A stretch of DNA of 64,000 nucleotides from Thiosulfatihalobacter marinus (GTDB lineage: Bacteria > Pseudomonadota > Alphaproteobacteria > Rhodobacterales > Rhodobacteraceae), in contig NZ_JAECRZ010000003.1 in assembly GCF_016019955.1 (NCBI RefSeq), forward strand, positions 232,892 through 296,891, in the 5' to 3' direction. Positions 58,472 through 64,000 of this stretch are shown one piece after another. The position numbers and the translations under genes are program-made. Each line of letters opens with the position of its first letter. Positions within the stretch are counted from its first letter, which is position 1. The notes below the pieces were generated by a model, which was given only the letters and a program-made list of their open reading frames with translations, was not told the DNA's origin and did no database searches.

Positions 58472-58963
58472 ATGAGCCGACTGGATGTCTTTATCAACCG
58501 TATGGCGTCACAACGCGCCTGTATCGATTTCGCGGCCCGACAGACCCGCGAACGGGGCGGGCCGGTGTTCGAGTTGGGGCTGGGCAATGGCCGCACCTTC
58601 GATCATCTGCGCGAGCAAATGCCCGAGCGCGATATCTATGTATTCGAGAGGGAAGTTGCATCGAACCCGGCCTCAACCCCGGCCCCGGAAATGACCATTC
58701 TGGGCGACGTGCGCGAGACACTGCCGGCGGCGCTTGCCCGGTTCGGCGCCACGGCCAGCGTGATCCACGCCGATCTGGGTGGACATGACCTGGCCAGGAA
58801 CGACCGGTTCGCGCGCGATATTTCGCCCCTGATCGAGCCCTTGCTGGGTCCGGGCGGCATCATGGTGTCGTCGGACCGCATGTATTTCGCCGGCCTGCGC
58901 GAACTGCCGCTTCCGCCCGACGCGGTTGAAGGGCGGTGCTTTGTGTACCGTCGGGACGCGTAG
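58472..58963 (+). CDS. Small class I SAM-dependent methyltransferase-like protein (paralogue)
   Basis: A 163-residue protein resembling the one at 41731-42207. Both begin MSRLD, and motif I here is ELGLGNGRTFDHLREQMPER (about 34-53), followed by VFER. The C-terminal half holds SPLIEPLLGPGGIMVSSDRM, matching SPLIAACMAPGGVLVSG of the paralogue. GAGG lies upstream of ATG 58472. It stands alone between the second ABC operon and the lipid locus, 176 nt upstream of the alpha-oxoamine synthase, so a link to lipid or glycan modification is possible but unproven. Confidence 0.72.
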   Translation: MSRLDVFINRMASQRACIDFAARQTRERGGPVFELGLGNGRTFDHLREQMPERDIYVFEREVASNPASTPAPEMTILGDVRETLPAALARFGATASVIHADLGGHDLARNDRFARDISPLIEPLLGPGGIMVSSDRMYFAGLRELPLPPDAVEGRCFVYRRDA

Positions 58964-59139
58964 AACTGTCTGGATTCCGGGCGGTTGCACCGGTAATAGG
59001 CGCAAAATTGTAGACCGTGCTGATTTGTACCTTCATATTGGCGGAACACCGGTTTAAGGGTGTAGCCGTTAAATGGGATACTCAGCGGCGCGTTCGAGCA
59101 GGCGCCACAAGCTTTAGTCTGTCCAGGACGGTGAGGGAC

Positions 59140-60366
59140 ATGGAAGAAAACAAATCCAGCTTTCTGACGTTTGCCGAGCGGTTCTTCCGGCTGGGCGGCG
59201 GATTCCTGGTTGCCGAAGACAACCCGTATTTCGTTCCGACCGATGCCCTGGAGGACAGGAGCGGCGAGTGGCCCGACGGCTATCTGTCGATGGCGCATTA
59301 CGATTACCTTGGCCTGCTGCATCACCCCGAAACCACCGCCGCCGCAAAGGCGGCGATTGACCGTCACGGGACCGGCGTGGGGGCCTCGCGGCTGGTGGGC
59401 GGAGAGCGCCTGGCGCATCGCGCCTTTGAAGAAGACATGGCGGATTTCCTGGGAGTCGGCGGCGTGCTGACAATGATCTCGGGCTATCTGACGAATGTCA
59501 GCGTGATCGGTCTTTTGGCGCACCACAAGGATCTGATCATTGTGGACGAGCTGGCGCATAATTCGATCATGGTCGGGGCGCAGGGGGTCAAGGCTGATCT
59601 GCTGTCGTATCCGCATAATGATCTGGACGCGTTGGACAAGCTGCTGGGCGAGAAACGCGGCAGCTATAACCGGGTGTTGATCTGTACCGAGGGCCTGTTC
59701 TCGATGGACGGCGACATCACTGATCTGCCCAGGCTGCTGGAGATCAAGGATCGCCATGACGCGTGGCTGCTTTTGGACGAAGCGCATTCCTACGGCGTGC
59801 TTGGTCCCACGGGGCGCGGCCTGTGCGAGCATTTCGGCATCGACCCGGAGCGCGTGGAGCTTTCGATCGGGACATTGTCCAAGAGCTTTGCCTCGGCCGG
59901 TGGGTTTGTGGCGGGCAACAAGAAGGTCATCGAGTGGATGCGGTTCGGCATCGCCGGGTTCATCTATTCGGTGGGCTTGCAGCCGGCAACGGTGGCCAGT
60001 TCGCACCAGGCCCTGAAGATCTTGCGCGACGAGCCGGACCGGGTGACACGGCTGCGGCGCAATTCCAAGCTGTTCCTGCGCAAGGCGCGCGAGGCCGGGC
60101 TGAACACCGGCACCGCGATCGGCGAGGCGGTGGTGCCGGTATTGTTCGAGTCGCCCATGGAATGCATGCTGGCGGCCAAAGCATTGATGGATCAGGGTAT
60201 TTATGCCCCGCCTGTCATCCAGATCGGCATTCCCAAGGACTTGCCGCGCATCCGCTTCTTCCTGTCGGCCACCCATACCGAAACTGATATCGACCGCGTG
60301 ATCAACGCGCTGGTCGCGGCGTCAGGCGGGGTGCATTCCGTACGGAACCGATTGAGCGCGGAATAA
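59140..60366 (+). CDS. Alpha-oxoamine synthase, serine palmitoyltransferase-like
   Basis: A 408-residue fold-I PLP enzyme of the alpha-oxoamine synthase family (SPT, AONS, KBL, ALAS). The PLP lysine is Lys248 in GTLSKSFASAGG, and the cofactor aspartate is in LLDEAHSYG (Asp213, His216). VDELAHNSIMVGAQ carries the histidine that stacks on PLP. These enzymes condense an amino acid with an acyl thioester. The downstream 3-ketosphinganine-reductase-like gene points to serine plus acyl-CoA or acyl-ACP giving a 3-keto sphingoid base. The N-terminal extension differs from 8-amino-7-oxononanoate synthase and no biotin genes are near. Start ATG 59140; the ribosome site is weak (AGGA 12 nt upstream). 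Confidence 0.8.
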   Translation: MEENKSSFLTFAERFFRLGGGFLVAEDNPYFVPTDALEDRSGEWPDGYLSMAHYDYLGLLHHPETTAAAKAAIDRHGTGVGASRLVGGERLAHRAFEEDMADFLGVGGVLTMISGYLTNVSVIGLLAHHKDLIIVDELAHNSIMVGAQGVKADLLSYPHNDLDALDKLLGEKRGSYNRVLICTEGLFSMDGDITDLPRLLEIKDRHDAWLLLDEAHSYGVLGPTGRGLCEHFGIDPERVELSIGTLSKSFASAGGFVAGNKKVIEWMRFGIAGFIYSVGLQPATVASSHQALKILRDEPDRVTRLRRNSKLFLRKAREAGLNTGTAIGEAVVPVLFESPMECMLAAKALMDQGIYAPPVIQIGIPKDLPRIRFFLSATHTETDIDRVINALVAASGGVHSVRNRLSAE

Positions 60367-60371
60367 TCCCG

Positions 60372-61004
60372 ATGCTGCGCATGTGCCTGTCCCGACTGCC
60401 GTTGCCGTGCGTTTTTATGCTGGTGGGTCTGATGGTCGTTGCGGCGGCGCTGCCCGCCCAGGCGCGGCCGGGCATCCGGCTGACGGAAAGCAGCGTGTCA
60501 TACTCCCTGCCCCGGGCTCGCGCCGAGTTCCCGCATCCTGACGAACCGCGCCAGCTGTTCTTTGTTCAGCGCACGCCAAACGCCAACACCGTTGTCTATG
60601 CCGCCCGGTTCACCGCCGACGGGCGTCTCGACCCGCGCCGCCCGGTGGTTGCCTATTGGCGCCGCTATGCCAGCCAGGGGCAGACCATGCGGCTGCGCTG
60701 GTACGAACGGTTGTTCGGCTATGGTGTCTGGAGCCGGCCGAACCGCAATGGATCGGGCTATCTTGTGGGCGTCAACGCGATGCGGAACACAAGCGTGGAG
60801 CTGCGCCAGACCGGTCCGTTTCAAGCCGCGCTATGGACACGGGTCGACAATCGTGATTTTCAGCTGGTCTATGGCTACCTGGACCTTGACGAAAGTGGGA
60901 TGCTTCCCAGGGTCGAACGCCTGCGCCTATACACCACGGACCCGGAAACGGGCCGCTATGTCACACATTTTTTTGCAGTTTCCGGTGGAGAATACCACGA
61001 ATGA
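60372..61004 (+). CDS. Exported DUF4833-like protein
   Basis: A 210-residue protein. It has a signal peptide or anchor (about residues 13-32, ending PAQA), then an approximately 150-residue domain. The segment FFVQRTPNANTVVYAARF, with YWRRYASQGQ and ERLFGYGVW, matches my recollection of DUF4833, a family I associate with inositol-lipid loci of Bacteroidetes. The function is unknown; a periplasmic lipid-related role is an inference from context. It starts 5 nt after the alpha-oxoamine synthase, and its stop overlaps the ATG of inositol-1-phosphate synthase (ATGA). This coupling indicates that it works in the same pathway. Confidence 0.68.
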   Translation: MLRMCLSRLPLPCVFMLVGLMVVAAALPAQARPGIRLTESSVSYSLPRARAEFPHPDEPRQLFFVQRTPNANTVVYAARFTADGRLDPRRPVVAYWRRYASQGQTMRLRWYERLFGYGVWSRPNRNGSGYLVGVNAMRNTSVELRQTGPFQAALWTRVDNRDFQLVYGYLDLDESGMLPRVERLRLYTTDPETGRYVTHFFAVSGGEYHE

Positions 61005-62122
61005 CTTCGCAGACGACGAAAACCCCCATCCGCACCGTGATCGTGGGGGTTGGCAATTGTGCCAGTTCGCTGATCCAGGGCGTTTCCTATTGCAAGGCGA
61101 CGGGCGCTGAGGCCGTGGGGGTGAGCTTTCCCGAGCTGGGCGGCTACCGGCCCGAGGATATCGAGCTGGTTGCCGGGTTCGACGTGGATCTGCGCAAGGT
61201 TGGCAAGCCGCTGGGCGAGGCGGCTTTCGCGGCGCCCAACTGCACCGAACGGTTCCACACCGATCTGGAGGACCAGACCGCACCGATCCATCGCGGGCCC
61301 GATCTGGACGGGGTGGCCTGGCATATGTTGCAGAACCCCGAGGATCGTTCGTTCCGCCTGTCGCAGGAACCGGCGCTGAGCAAGGACGACGTTGTGGCCA
61401 CGCTGCGCGCGCTGGAAGCAGAGGTCATGATCATCTTCCTGCCGGTGGGATCGCAGAAGGCCGTGGAATTCTACGTGGAATGCGCATTGGAGGCCGGGGT
61501 GGCCGTGGTAAACGGCATCCCCGTGTTCATCGCCTCGCATCCGGTCTGGGCCGCGAAATTCCGCGCCGCGGGCGTGCCGATCCTGGGCGATGATTTCAAG
61601 GCCCAGTTCGGCGCCACCATCGTGCACCGCACATTGGTCAATCTGGCCCGGATGCGCGGTGTCGAGATCGACCGCACCTATCAGCTGAACGTGGGCGGCA
61701 ACACCGACTTTCTGAACATGACCGAGCAGGAACGGCTGACCAACAAGCGCGAGAGCAAGACCGAGGCGGTACAGGCCGCGTTGAACAACCGACTGCATGA
61801 AAATGACATCCGCATCGGCCCGTCCGACTATGTGCCCTGGCTGAACGACCGCAAGGTTGCCTATGTGCGCATGGAAGGCCGCCTGTTTGGCGGGGCACGC
61901 ACCAATATCGAGGTACGGCTGGATGTCGAGGACAGCCCCAATGCCGCCGCCGAGGCGCTGGTGGCGATCCGGCTGGCGCGGATTGCGCGTGATCGCGGAA
62001 TGGCCGGGCCAATCGCGGATGCCAGCGCGTTTCTGTTCAAGCACCCGCCAGAACAGATCGAAGACACTGATGCCCATGACGTGATCCTGAATTTCGTCAA
62101 AGGGGACGGGGCAGGCGCCTGA
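61001..62122 (+). CDS. myo-Inositol-1-phosphate synthase
   Basis: A 373-residue NAD-dependent enzyme converting glucose 6-phosphate to 1L-myo-inositol 1-phosphate. The Rossmann motif VGVGNCASSLIQG is at residues 16-28. The conserved LNVGGNTDFLNM, GPSDYVPWLNDRKVAYVRMEG and the LFKHPPEQ tail are typical of the bacterial/archaeal short form. It overlaps the DUF4833 gene by 4 nt and the SDR gene by 1 nt. The enzyme is uncommon in alphaproteobacteria and is here embedded in a sphingoid-base operon, pointing to an inositol-phosphate lipid head group. Confidence 0.9.
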   Translation: MTSQTTKTPIRTVIVGVGNCASSLIQGVSYCKATGAEAVGVSFPELGGYRPEDIELVAGFDVDLRKVGKPLGEAAFAAPNCTERFHTDLEDQTAPIHRGPDLDGVAWHMLQNPEDRSFRLSQEPALSKDDVVATLRALEAEVMIIFLPVGSQKAVEFYVECALEAGVAVVNGIPVFIASHPVWAAKFRAAGVPILGDDFKAQFGATIVHRTLVNLARMRGVEIDRTYQLNVGGNTDFLNMTEQERLTNKRESKTEAVQAALNNRLHENDIRIGPSDYVPWLNDRKVAYVRMEGRLFGGARTNIEVRLDVEDSPNAAAEALVAIRLARIARDRGMAGPIADASAFLFKHPPEQIEDTDAHDVILNFVKGDGAGA

Positions 62123-62916
62123 TGCGCCCGGCCTTTGTCACCGGCGGATCAAGCGGCATCGGACTTGCCGCTGCTGTACTGCTGGCGAAACGAGGCCATG
62201 ACATTGCGCTTTTCGCCCGCGATCCGGGCCGGCTGGCGGCGGCGCGGCAGGTCATTCTTGACGCGGCGCCCGACATATCCGTGCGCGAGTTTCCCGTTGA
62301 TGTCAGCGATCGCGCCGCGGTGGAAAGCGCCGTGGCCGAGGCCGTTGCGGCGATGGGCGTGCCGGGATTCGCCATTGCCAGCGCGGGCATAGCCGAACCG
62401 GGCCTGTTTGCCGAACAGCCAGTCGACCTGCACGAACGCCATATGGCGATCAACTATTTCGGAGCGCTCTATTTCGTCAGAGCCCTGACCGGCCCGATGG
62501 CCGATGCCGGCGGCGGCAAGGTCGGGCTGGTCTCGTCGGGGGCGGCATTTTTCGGGATCTACGGCTATTCCAGCTATGCGCCGTCGAAATTCGCGCTGCG
62601 TGGATTGGGCGAAGTGCTGCATGTGGAACTGGAACCGCGGGGCATCGACGTGACGATCTGTTATCCACCCGATACCCAAACGCCAATGCTGGAGGCCGAG
62701 ATGGCCACCAAGCCCGCCGCGACGGTCGAGATTACCAGGGGAGGCGGGCTTTGGCAGGCCGAGGCCGTGGCCGCCCGGCTGATCGCCGGGATGCAGGCCG
62801 GACGGCTGGTGGTGGCGCCGGGTTTCCAGATGGCGGGGCTAAACCGGTTCACAAGCCTGATCGCGCCGATCCTGCGCTGGCATCAACGGCGGCTGATCCG
62901 CAAGTTCAGCGAATGA
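62122..62916 (+). CDS. Short-chain dehydrogenase, 3-ketodihydrosphingosine reductase-like
   Basis: A 264-residue classical SDR. The cofactor motif is GGSSGIG (residues 8-14), the catalytic serine lies in GLVSSGAAFFGIYG, and the catalytic pair is Tyr152 and Lys156 in YAPSKFALRG. After it, EPRGIDVTICYPPDTQTPML closely resembles the YPPDTDTP region of eukaryotic 3-ketodihydrosphingosine reductase (KDSR/FVT1/Tsc10). It would reduce the 3-keto base made by the first enzyme of the operon to a sphinganine-type base. It overlaps inositol-phosphate synthase by 1 nt and the CdsA-like gene by 4 nt. Confidence 0.82.
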   Translation: MRPAFVTGGSSGIGLAAAVLLAKRGHDIALFARDPGRLAAARQVILDAAPDISVREFPVDVSDRAAVESAVAEAVAAMGVPGFAIASAGIAEPGLFAEQPVDLHERHMAINYFGALYFVRALTGPMADAGGGKVGLVSSGAAFFGIYGYSSYAPSKFALRGLGEVLHVELEPRGIDVTICYPPDTQTPMLEAEMATKPAATVEITRGGGLWQAEAVAARLIAGMQAGRLVVAPGFQMAGLNRFTSLIAPILRWHQRRLIRKFSE

Positions 62917-63794
62917 ACGGGCTGAGCGCCGAAGGTCTGGCGCTGACCGGGGCCGTGCTTTTGGCGGTGGGTTATGGCGTTTTGGGTGCGCTGTGGCTGA
63001 TCCCCGCGACCCGGGCGATTGCACGCGATCTGGCGCGGGTGTTTTTCAGTGCCACGATTGTGGCCGTGGTGCTGATCGCCGCCCTGCTGGCGGGCACGGC
63101 GGGGCTGGTTCTGTTGATGGTGGCCGTATCGCTGCGCGTCGGGTACGAGGCGGGCCATGTTCGTCTTGGCGCGGGGCGCCCAGCCTGGGGCATGGCGATT
63201 GTGGCATTTGGTGTGACAGCGGCGGCCATGGCAGAGCCACTGGCCGCGGTGGCGCTGGCCGGAGTGTGGCCGCTGTTATTGTTGCGCGCCCTTATGGCAC
63301 GAGGCGGCGGGACGGGACGGGGTTTGTTGGATTTGCTGGTCTTCCCGGTGATCCCGATGGCGTTGCTGGCGCATGGATTGACCGCGCCGGAATGGCGTAT
63401 TGCCAGCGCCGGGGCCTATGCGCTGGTCGAGATTTTCGACAGTTGCGCGCTGCTGGCGGGCAAGCTGTTCGGCCGGCGCAAGGCGTTTCCGGTGCTGTCA
63501 CCGGGCAAAACCGTCGAGGGGCTGATCGGTGGCGGGCTTGGGCTATTGGCGCTCAGCGCGGGGGGGGCGGTTCTGCTGGGGTTGGATGGTGGTGCGCTTA
63601 TCCTGACGGCATCGCTGGTTGCCGGGCTGGCGGTGGCGGGTGATCTGGCCGCCTCGCGGCTGAAACGCATGGCCGGGGTCAAGGATTACCCGGTCCTGAT
63701 GCGGCGCCAGGGCGGCGTGCTGGATTCGCTGGACAGCTGGATTGCCGCCGGCGCCGGGCTGGTGGCGTTGAATATTATCCTGACGTGGCTGTGA
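62913..63794 (+). CDS. CdsA-like phosphatidate cytidylyltransferase family protein (divergent)
   Basis: A 293-residue membrane protein with seven to eight hydrophobic segments. Near residues 248-268 the C-terminal signature reads LKRMAGVKDYPVLMRRQGG, then VLDSLDSW. In CdsA the equivalent is SxxKRxxxxKDxxxxxPGHGG followed by DRxDS; here the histidine is replaced by Gln and the arginine by Ser, while both aspartates remain. CdsA makes CDP-diacylglycerol from CTP and phosphatidate. The altered signature and the sphingolipid setting suggest another lipid phosphate as substrate, giving a CDP-activated lipid that could take inositol phosphate. Start ATG 62913 overlaps the SDR stop. Confidence 0.78.
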   Translation: MNGLSAEGLALTGAVLLAVGYGVLGALWLIPATRAIARDLARVFFSATIVAVVLIAALLAGTAGLVLLMVAVSLRVGYEAGHVRLGAGRPAWGMAIVAFGVTAAAMAEPLAAVALAGVWPLLLLRALMARGGGTGRGLLDLLVFPVIPMALLAHGLTAPEWRIASAGAYALVEIFDSCALLAGKLFGRRKAFPVLSPGKTVEGLIGGGLGLLALSAGGAVLLGLDGGALILTASLVAGLAVAGDLAASRLKRMAGVKDYPVLMRRQGGVLDSLDSWIAAGAGLVALNIILTWL

Positions 63795-63834
63795 CGGGCT
63801 TGCACCGGGGGATCGCAGGGGGAATGGTTGCGCC

Positions 63835-64000
63835 ATGAGAGTTCTTCGCCCCCTCATACGGATTCTGGCGTGGCCGGTGCTGGCGCGATTGCTGGTGATC
63901 CTGGCGGTGGTCGAGGCGATTTTCCTGGCCGAGAGTTTCACGACGCTGCTGGAAGAGGCGCTGCGCAACGATGCGTTGGCGGCGGATGTGGGGATTTTGC
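63835..64000 (+). CDS. Possible LptF/LptG-type permease, N-terminal fragment
   Basis: The first 55 codons of a gene cut by the window edge, starting ATG 63835. A hydrophobic segment covers about residues 10-32 (WPVLARLLVILAVVEAIFLA), followed by ESFTTLLEEAL. A first membrane helix followed by an amphipathic stretch of this kind is typical of the LptF/LptG (YjgP/YjgQ) transporters that extract lipopolysaccharide. Other membrane proteins could start the same way. It lies 40 nt downstream of the CdsA-like gene on the same strand, so it could export the operon's lipid product. Confidence 0.45.
   Translation, partial: MRVLRPLIRILAWPVLARLLVILAVVEAIFLAESFTTLLEEALRNDALAADVGIL

Follow-up and report, generated by a model that had tools for sequence, protein, structure and literature searches.

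A candidate operon for the synthesis and export of a glycosylated phosphoinositol lipid on a sphingoid-type base in Thiosulfatihalobacter marinus

Results

The right-hand end of a 64,000-nucleotide stretch of the Thiosulfatihalobacter marinus genome (the window; C33:232892-296891 of the 4.16-Mb assembly) carries an operon in which genes of sphingolipid type and a gene for inositol synthesis stand side by side and which continues beyond the window. We are inclined to read the operon and its continuation as a system for making and exporting a phosphoinositol lipid that is glycosylated and built on a sphingoid-type base. Positions without a prefix are those of the window, the continuation is L002 (C33:290000-309000; window coordinate = L002 coordinate + 57108), and other L and G labels denote the loci of relatives and their genomes.

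Five complete plus-strand genes lie between 59140 and 63794, and an LptF-like gene begins at 63835 (open reading frame (ORF) list and Pfam). The first gene encodes an alpha-oxoamine synthase of 408 amino acids (59140..60366, +; Pfam Aminotran_1_2, 152 bits), which we call SPT-like because no curated serine palmitoyltransferase (SPT) family cut-off was reached; an alternative upstream GTG of this ORF is found at 59017, and homologues align from 59140. After a gap of 5 nt (stop 60366, ATG 60372) follows a DUF4833 protein (60372..61004, +; PF16117, 85.6 bits), whose gene overlaps by 4 nt (ATGA) with that for myo-inositol-1-phosphate synthase (MIPS; 61001..62122, +; Inos-1-P_synth, 120.8 bits). 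The MIPS gene shares 1 nt (TGATG) with a KDSR-like short-chain reductase gene (SDR; 62122..62916, +; adh_short, 122.8 bits), which in turn overlaps by 4 nt (ATGA) with the gene for a CdsA-like CTP:lipid-phosphate cytidylyltransferase (62913..63794, +; CTP_transf_1, 91.7 bits). A gap of 40 nt (stop 63794, ATG 63835) precedes the LptF-like gene, of which the window holds only the start (63835..64000, +) and which, like the whole cluster, runs past the window end (L002:6727 onward). An earlier note made from the sequence of the window had described six co-directional genes of these families with overlaps of 4, 1 and 4 nt, all of which is borne out by the ORFs, Pfam and the reading of the junctions.

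In the parent contig the LptF-like gene is complete (LptF2, L002:6727-7842; LptF_LptG, 48.5 bits) and is followed by an LptG-like gene (LptG2, L002:7839-8966; LptF_LptG, 92.3 bits) and a nucleotidyltransferase gene (NTPt, L002:8963-9709, minus strand). Further on lie genes for two CDP-alcohol phosphotransferases (CDPPT1, L002:9799-10467; CDPPT2, L002:13213-13824), between them those for a PimA-like glycosyltransferase (GT4, L002:10464-11597) and an FGGY kinase (L002:11661-13187), and finally those for a Frag1/Sfk1-type membrane protein (L002:13809-14636, minus strand) and an ABC exporter (L002:14558-16318, minus strand).

The cluster is rare within the order: 11 of the 292 order genomes, spread over 3 of 112 genera, carry DUF4833, as do 3 of the 385 genomes drawn from the class, one of the three being under the cut-off. 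A co-occurrence of the gene set across Rhodobacterales, which the earlier note had raised, was therefore not borne out. Where DUF4833 is present in the order, the SPT-like, DUF4833, MIPS, SDR, CdsA, LptF2 and LptG2 genes are syntenic in 10 of the 11 genomes, and the eleventh keeps the same row except for the SPT-like gene, so the grouping is not due to chance. DUF4833, MIPS, SDR, CdsA, LptF2, LptG2 and GT4 stand at 11/11 loci, the SPT-like, FGGY, CDPPT2, Frag1 and ABC genes at 10/11, and NTPt together with CDPPT1 at 6/11, both being absent from the other five (presence thresholds were chosen after earlier BLAST lists had been seen). In the exception, L044 of genome G467, the SPT-like gene (58% identity) and the FGGY-CDPPT2 pair sit elsewhere in the genome; genome-wide, an SPT-like orthologue occurs in all 11. 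Compared with one close relative (L041), dN/dS was 0.07-0.32 across 12 genes. A named scan yielded 25 DUF4833 loci (12 from Shimia, 4 from other Rhodobacteraceae, 2 from Stappia, 1 from a Mesorhizobium metagenome-assembled genome (MAG) and 6 from other alphaproteobacterial MAGs), with the SPT-like gene at 22, MIPS at 19 and LptG2 at 23; these loci partly overlap the 11 order loci and do not form an independent set. Among them, L089 and L090 are short contigs, and the genome of L082 has no oxoamine synthase at all, is probably incomplete and is uninformative for SPT. Some loci carry a gene for a Stealth-type sugar-phosphate transferase between GT4 and FGGY (L045:12559-13518; also L041, L043, L083, L084, L089 and L179).

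In the inositol module, MIPS matches Mycobacterium tuberculosis Ino1 (PDB 1GR0) with 356 bits over residues 6-366, a full-length match that supports its proposed identity, and scores 374.8 bits against TIGR03450, under the cut-off of 638. The CdsA-like enzyme (67.7 bits against PRK11624, cut-off 385) is, by this score, divergent from the curated CdsA model. A CDP-alcohol phosphotransferase had been predicted just past the right edge, and two are present, both with the motif DxxDGxxAR...GxxxDxxxD as read from the sequence. CDPPT2 has its best PDB match in 6H53, a mycobacterial phosphatidylinositol phosphate (PIP) synthase, and remains under all NCBIfam cut-offs (archaetidylinositol-phosphate synthase, 117/180 bits; PIP synthase, 77.5/170; BT1523 model, 68.8/350). 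Its residues aligned to K135, R155 and R195 of the M. tuberculosis PIP synthase, which we presume to be functional positions, are kept in 15/15, 15/15 and 14/15 members, the remaining one being an alignment gap. A CDPPT2 orthologue is found in 5/5 further genomes whose DUF4833 locus includes MIPS and, save one weak match, in 0/4 genomes whose DUF4833 locus is without MIPS. A sixth genome with CDPPT2, G678, was left uncounted since it was filed as inositol type because of CDPPT2; the top oxoamine synthase in this genome is a canonical-type SPT (34% identity to the present one, 49% to E. coli SPT). GT4 aligns along its whole length with PimA (133 bits, against 53 for the next solved relative), and the FGGY kinase, which adjoins CDPPT2, is xylulokinase-like. 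Taken together, we regard the synthesis of a phosphoinositol lipid as very probable.

NTPt, considered as a possible CDP-inositol synthase, is closest among solved structures to the phosphonate-type PntC (91.5 bits; Thermococcales IPCT/DIPPS profile, 42.7 bits). Five of the 11 order genomes gave no NTPt orthologue and only weak matches away from the locus, and NTPt is therefore not the sole inositol-attaching route there. A phosphonate substrate for NTPt in T. marinus was considered and rejected, as the genome has no match to the phosphoenolpyruvate (PEP) mutase fusion of Stappia at E<=1e-10.

The sphingoid module consists of the oxoamine synthase and the SDR. In the PDB ranking the oxoamine synthase scored 218 bits with the S. 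multivorum SPT (3A2B), 195 with Kbl, 193 with 8-amino-7-oxononanoate synthase (AONS) and 188 with the S. paucimobilis SPT, a modest lead of SPT over Kbl and AONS. It belongs to a clade, here called clade X, with enzymes of Shimia and Stappia, the S. meliloti enzyme in the position of RkpG and enzymes linked to polyketide synthases (PKS) or capsules. Clade X is sister to Bacteroidota and proteobacterial SPT and stands apart from Kbl, 5-aminolevulinate synthase (ALAS) and, where included, E. coli BioF: clade X and SPT were united with a split support of 96/94 in a 39-row tree and of 97/96 in a 27-row tree including E. coli BioF, which is a long branch and the only BioF/AONS row in either tree, and were split from Kbl and ALAS with 98/96 in a 26-row tree from which long branches and AONS were left out. 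Forcing clade X together with Kbl was rejected (p 0.017, 26-row tree). The SPT-like assignment made earlier thus agrees with the trees. Within clade X, Acidisoma, L086 and L091 share a branch with the present enzyme, and the S. meliloti branch is separate from it (26- and 27-row trees). The genome also encodes its own ALAS and its own Kbl.

For the SDR, the 3-ketosphinganine reductase TSC10 (8JAT, 83.7 bits) is the sole PDB match at E<=1e-20, which upholds its naming as KDSR-like. Four relatives without MIPS at the locus keep the clade X gene together with DUF4833 and an LptG-type gene. YghO lies beside the clade X gene in L086 and L091, and a desaturase with the sphingolipid delta-4 desaturase domain PF08557 is encoded at the clade X locus in L085 (Pfam) and L088 (homology). 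The gene context in these relatives is a stronger argument for a sphingoid product than the sequence scores, and a sphingoid-type base is likely to be made. A different locus in another genome of the genus (L128:6766-10265), unrelated to the present cluster, has a divergent oxoamine synthase gene overlapping a YghO homologue, with a CerR-like gene (24%) adjoining.

LptF2 and LptG2 reach their top NCBIfam scores as LptF (75 bits, cut-off 230) and LptG (92 bits, cut-off 240) and are, judged by these scores, a divergent pair. The possible LptF-type permease of the earlier note is thus part of a second LptFG pair, as at the sphingolipid loci of E. coli B and Caulobacter: in E. coli BL21, a B strain, an LptF/LptG pair likewise adjoins spt, and the Caulobacter sphingolipid region contains LptC2/F2/G2 according to the excerpted text of PMC11324152. 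The DUF4833 protein has an N-terminal hydrophobic helix followed by an all-beta part and is likely periplasmic and export-linked. It stands with LptG at 23 of the 25 named-scan loci, the other two being short contigs; since it tracks LptG whether or not MIPS is present, a role in export is likelier than one linked to inositol. The idea that it is an LptC/LptA-like lipid carrier was not retained, because two AlphaFold models (pLDDT 81 and 88) gave no PDB fold match at E<=0.001, and this idea therefore derives from gene neighbourhood only.

A related arrangement was found in another family (L179, genome G140), where a rearranged set lies within about 13 kb with MIPS on the other strand. Identities to the present proteins are 54% for CDPPT2, 48% for the SDR, 44% for the clade X synthase, 42% for FGGY and 36% for GT4, and the set also holds Frag1, ABC and Stealth homologues, a further CDP-alcohol enzyme, MIPS and a CdsA-like enzyme. 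The synthase falls in a sub-branch with L085 and not with the present enzyme (27-row tree). DUF4833 and LptFG had no match in the 19.5 kb examined. As the biosynthetic set is intact with another exporter, it behaves as one unit, which suggests that the SPT-like enzyme, SDR, CdsA, MIPS, CDPPT2, FGGY and GT4 form one pathway and that LptFG-DUF4833 is a replaceable export part. Beside the set (L179:12921-18469) lie genes for an ABC ATPase, two MacB/FtsX-type permeases and a TolC-type outer-membrane efflux protein, a possible alternative lipid exporter.

In a second, unrelated arrangement, L056 (1129-16344) encodes a canonical SPT (667 bits, NCBIfam cut-off 500) with an acyl carrier protein (ACP), homologues of AasR (46%), CerR (36%) and YghO and an LptF/LptG-family gene, and MIPS, NTPt and a CDP-alcohol enzyme lie among these sphingolipid genes. 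The short contig L060 (2405-8206) holds MIPS, NTPt, a YghO homologue, a fatty acid hydroxylase and SPT; its YghO homologue is 56% identical to that of L056 and 43% to E. coli YghO. Links of MIPS to canonical sphingolipid genes therefore exist in other alphaproteobacteria as well, and both loci are gene candidates for inositol sphingolipids in other families.

MIPS was present in 36 of the 385 class-draw genomes, at 38 places. We read 36 of these places (present genome and G022 excluded) with flanks of at most about 9 kb, shorter at contig ends and with several short contigs; bit thresholds were set by ourselves, and MIPS itself scored below 60 bits with the queries used in 3/36. An SPT or clade X gene lies near MIPS at three of them (L056, L060 and L179), for which reason MIPS alone was discarded as evidence for sphingolipids. 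One more oxoamine synthase near MIPS (L187) groups with Kbl, on a long branch. NTPt-like genes are near MIPS at 10/36 places and LptFG matches at 1/36.

Discussion

In the pathway that we propose, the SPT-like enzyme would catalyse the condensation of an amino acid, probably serine, and an acyl thioester, and reduction of the 3-keto group would fall to the SDR. MIPS would convert glucose 6-phosphate to inositol 1-phosphate, the CdsA-like enzyme would yield a CDP-activated lipid, and CDPPT2, as an enzyme of PIP synthase type, would join the two. A PgpA-type phosphatase, encoded in the cluster of some relatives and presumably a housekeeping enzyme here, would strip the second phosphate, and the PimA-like GT4 would put a sugar on the inositol; NTPt and CDPPT1, where present, may add a second, CMP-activated group. 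LptF2 and LptG2, probably with a shared LptB, and the periplasmic DUF4833 protein would carry the product toward the outer membrane. What the data above show are gene content, homology, synteny, co-occurrence and selection; we infer all substrates, the order of the steps, any N-acylation and the union of base and inositol. That sphingoid base and inositol end up in one molecule seems somewhat probable. Of the phosphoinositol sphingolipid operon put forward in the earlier note, the gene set stands and the family assignments are supported by matches to SPT, TSC10 and Ino1, whereas we infer that inositol phosphate is placed on a sphingoid base and not on diacylglycerol.

Several observations weigh against this reading. 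All NCBIfam SPT models stayed under their cut-offs (271.7/640, 264.5/500 and 205.4/670 bits), the top NCBIfam profile of the oxoamine synthase is bioF (325, cut-off 426), the rejection of clade X forced together with ALAS is not firm (p 0.065, 26-row tree), and clade X includes the S. meliloti RkpG-position enzyme and the PKS- and capsule-linked ones. In 33 of the 36 other MIPS neighbourhoods there is no SPT or clade X gene. A genome-based survey predicts, in its excerpted text, only phosphatidylglycerol, phosphatidylcholine and diphosphatidylglycerol for Shimia-group strains (PMC5770400). Several enzymes of the expected kinds were not found in the genes or genomes searched. AasR, the sphingolipid acyl-ACP synthetase, gave weak matches only in the 11 order genomes (best 59 bits). 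No PAP2/AUR1-type transferase like BT_1522, the inositol phosphorylceramide (IPC) synthase, and no ceramide kinase is among the annotated cluster genes, the genome not having been searched for them. A YghO-family N-acyltransferase had no match in this genome and a distant match in 2 of the 11 order genomes (31% and 26%), and was found in 5 of the 9 searched genomes of the named scan, all four with MIPS at the locus being without it. A PgpA-type phosphatase is encoded at 0/11 order loci, the present cluster included.

The phosphatase predicted beyond the right edge therefore holds for part of the named-scan loci and not for the order: a PgpA-type gene is in the cluster at 5 of the 25, among them Stappia, the Mesorhizobium MAG and two short contigs (Pfam on L083, homology for the others). 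The predicted acyltransferase or ceramide synthase was not recovered, neither in the cluster nor, as a YghO-family match, in this genome. YghO, which we take to be a ceramide synthase, also had no match in the L179 neighbourhood, and the inositol-type loci and genomes examined mostly lack the known N-acyltransferase. The base is then either acylated by a different enzyme or left free. No ACP gene was identified in the cluster, AcpR not having been searched genome-wide. Proteobacterial SPT co-occurs with a specialised acyl-ACP synthetase (AasR) and ACP, as stated in the excerpt of PMC9386255.

A first alternative is that one locus serves two lipids with a shared exporter, namely a diacylglycerol-based phosphatidylinositol glycoside, like mycobacterial phosphatidylinositol (PI) and the phosphatidylinositol mannoside (PIM) PIM1, and a separate sphingoid lipid. 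This would fit CDPPT2, GT4 and MIPS, which are all nearest to mycobacterial PI/PIM enzymes in the PDB, the fact that neither a ceramide kinase nor an enzyme of AUR1 type is among the cluster genes, the separation of both the SPT-like gene and CDPPT2 from the MIPS core in G467, and the co-occurrence of DUF4833, SPT-like and LptG genes without MIPS in L085, L086, L088 and L091. However, only 5 nt separate the SPT-like gene from the overlapping DUF4833, MIPS, SDR and CdsA genes of one operon, the SPT-like orthologue accompanies the cluster in 11/11 order genomes, and a dedicated divergent CdsA copy would be unneeded for ordinary CDP-diacylglycerol. Moreover, the set also stays together in L179, where the exporter differs, which means that exporter sharing does not account for its linkage. 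We consider two separate lipids rather unlikely.

According to a second alternative, the synthase and SDR would make the lipid anchor of a surface polysaccharide, as in an RkpG/RkpH-type system, with inositol phosphate and sugars as glycan parts. We take the RkpG and RkpH names to apply to the gene pair of the S. meliloti pSymB capsule locus. The synthase of this locus and PKS- or capsule-linked ones of Caballeronia and Pseudomonas share the clade of the present enzyme, the SDR is 37% identical to the SDR adjoining the S. meliloti RkpG-position gene, and the Stealth-type sugar-phosphate transferase is encoded at 3/11 order loci, with a homologue in L179. Such an anchor is nonetheless improbable, given that no PKS or capsule-export gene was identified among the cluster genes, that the exporter genes are of LptF/LptG type and that the synthase branches with Acidisoma, L086 and L091, the latter two beside YghO, apart from S. 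meliloti. Quite unlikely, too, is an oxoamine synthase that works on a different amino acid or a short-chain acyl group and makes no sphingoid base: the missed SPT cut-offs, the bioF profile and an identity of 29-35% to the SPT, Kbl, BioF and ALAS rows alike (31-34% to canonical alpha SPTs) would allow it, but the trees, the PDB ranking, the TSC10-like partner, the desaturase and YghO context in relatives and the genome's own Kbl and ALAS speak for SPT.

The glycosylated phosphoinositol sphingolipid cluster that we favour resembles several known systems in part. In B. thetaiotaomicron the inositol lipid cluster is BT_1522-1526, with the SPT BT_0870 at a separate locus and the PgpA-type BT_1525 as PIP phosphatase (excerpt of PMC9246714). 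Shared with it are MIPS, a PIP-synthase-type enzyme and the sphingolipid context, as well as the PgpA type in some relatives of the present cluster. In contrast, no counterpart of BT_1522 was identified here and no PgpA is in the present cluster, whereas it integrates a PimA-like glycosyltransferase, a CdsA copy and LptFG, and its SPT-like enzyme belongs to a different clade. The alternative inositol lipid cluster of B. vulgatus, which is not functionally confirmed in the excerpted text of PMC9246714, likewise has a nucleoside triphosphate (NTP) transferase and a CDP-alcohol phosphotransferase near MIPS; unlike there, no HAD hydrolase is among the cluster genes here, NTPt and CDPPT1 are absent from 5/11 order loci, and NTPt is nearest to PntC. 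Caulobacter crescentus and E. coli B also have, at their sphingolipid loci, a second LptF/LptG pair beside SPT (excerpts of PMC11324152 and PMC9386255), and some relatives in the SPT-like clade adjoin YghO; however, AcpR, AasR, CerR and YghO are outside the present cluster, a KDSR-type SDR replaces CerR, and inositol headgroup genes are added. The mycobacterial PI/PIM pathway provides the best solved-structure matches of MIPS, CDPPT2 and GT4 with Ino1, PIP synthase and PimA, but here the host is Gram-negative and the genes are tied to SPT-like and Lpt-type export genes. The rhizobial rkpGHIJ capsule genes, reportedly described by Kiss in 1997, also place a same-clade oxoamine synthase next to an SDR, whereas no RkpA-type PKS or fatty acid synthase and no capsule export gene was identified among the cluster genes here. 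In the open-licence PMC literature we found no description of such a cluster for this bacterial group and no paper on DUF4833. Unidentified lipids are reported for a Shimia relative, and the excerpt names no inositol lipid or sphingolipid (PMC10608839).

Inositol sphingolipids are best known in eukaryotes and gut Bacteroidetes. It is possible, and we propose it tentatively, that the product is a bacterial counterpart of the eukaryotic glycosyl-inositol-phospho-sphingolipids, with dedicated LptF2/LptG2-DUF4833 export, an exporter of MacB/FtsX-TolC type in the other family, and 2-aminoethylphosphonate added in Stappia and the Mesorhizobium MAG, where the chemical inventory would be that of trypanosomatid glycoinositolphospholipids. 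For the alphaproteobacterium Novosphingobium acidiphilum, Heaver et al. describe a lipid with inositol-dihydroceramide-like fragmentation and, in the excerpted text, no homologues of either known cluster (PMC9246714). The clusters of Shimia/Stappia/L179 type and those of L056/L060 type with canonical SPT are concrete gene candidates for alphaproteobacterial inositol sphingolipids. They also connect the uncharacterised family DUF4833 with a second LptFG pair, a link of relevance for sphingolipid transport to the outer membrane, a question called open in the excerpt of PMC11324152.

Just upstream of the SPT-like gene, Stappia and the Mesorhizobium MAG carry genes for a PEP mutase-NTP transferase fusion, a thiamine pyrophosphate enzyme and a class V aminotransferase (L083:3753-7870, L084:3996-7897, L087:4419-8371; Pfam on L083, homology for the others). 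The PEP mutase of L083 has the motif EDKIFPKTNS, in line with the EDKxxxxxNS rule in the excerpt of PMC6697681, and the gene content fits 2-aminoethylphosphonate synthesis as predicted from sequence. A sphingophosphonolipid may be possible in these strains. In L127 a class V aminotransferase gene also precedes the SPT-like gene. In the window itself, a small S-adenosylmethionine methyltransferase gene (58472-58963; PF12692, 216 bits), kept in some relatives only, lies upstream of the operon, and genes of an oligopeptide-type ABC transporter are located farther upstream.

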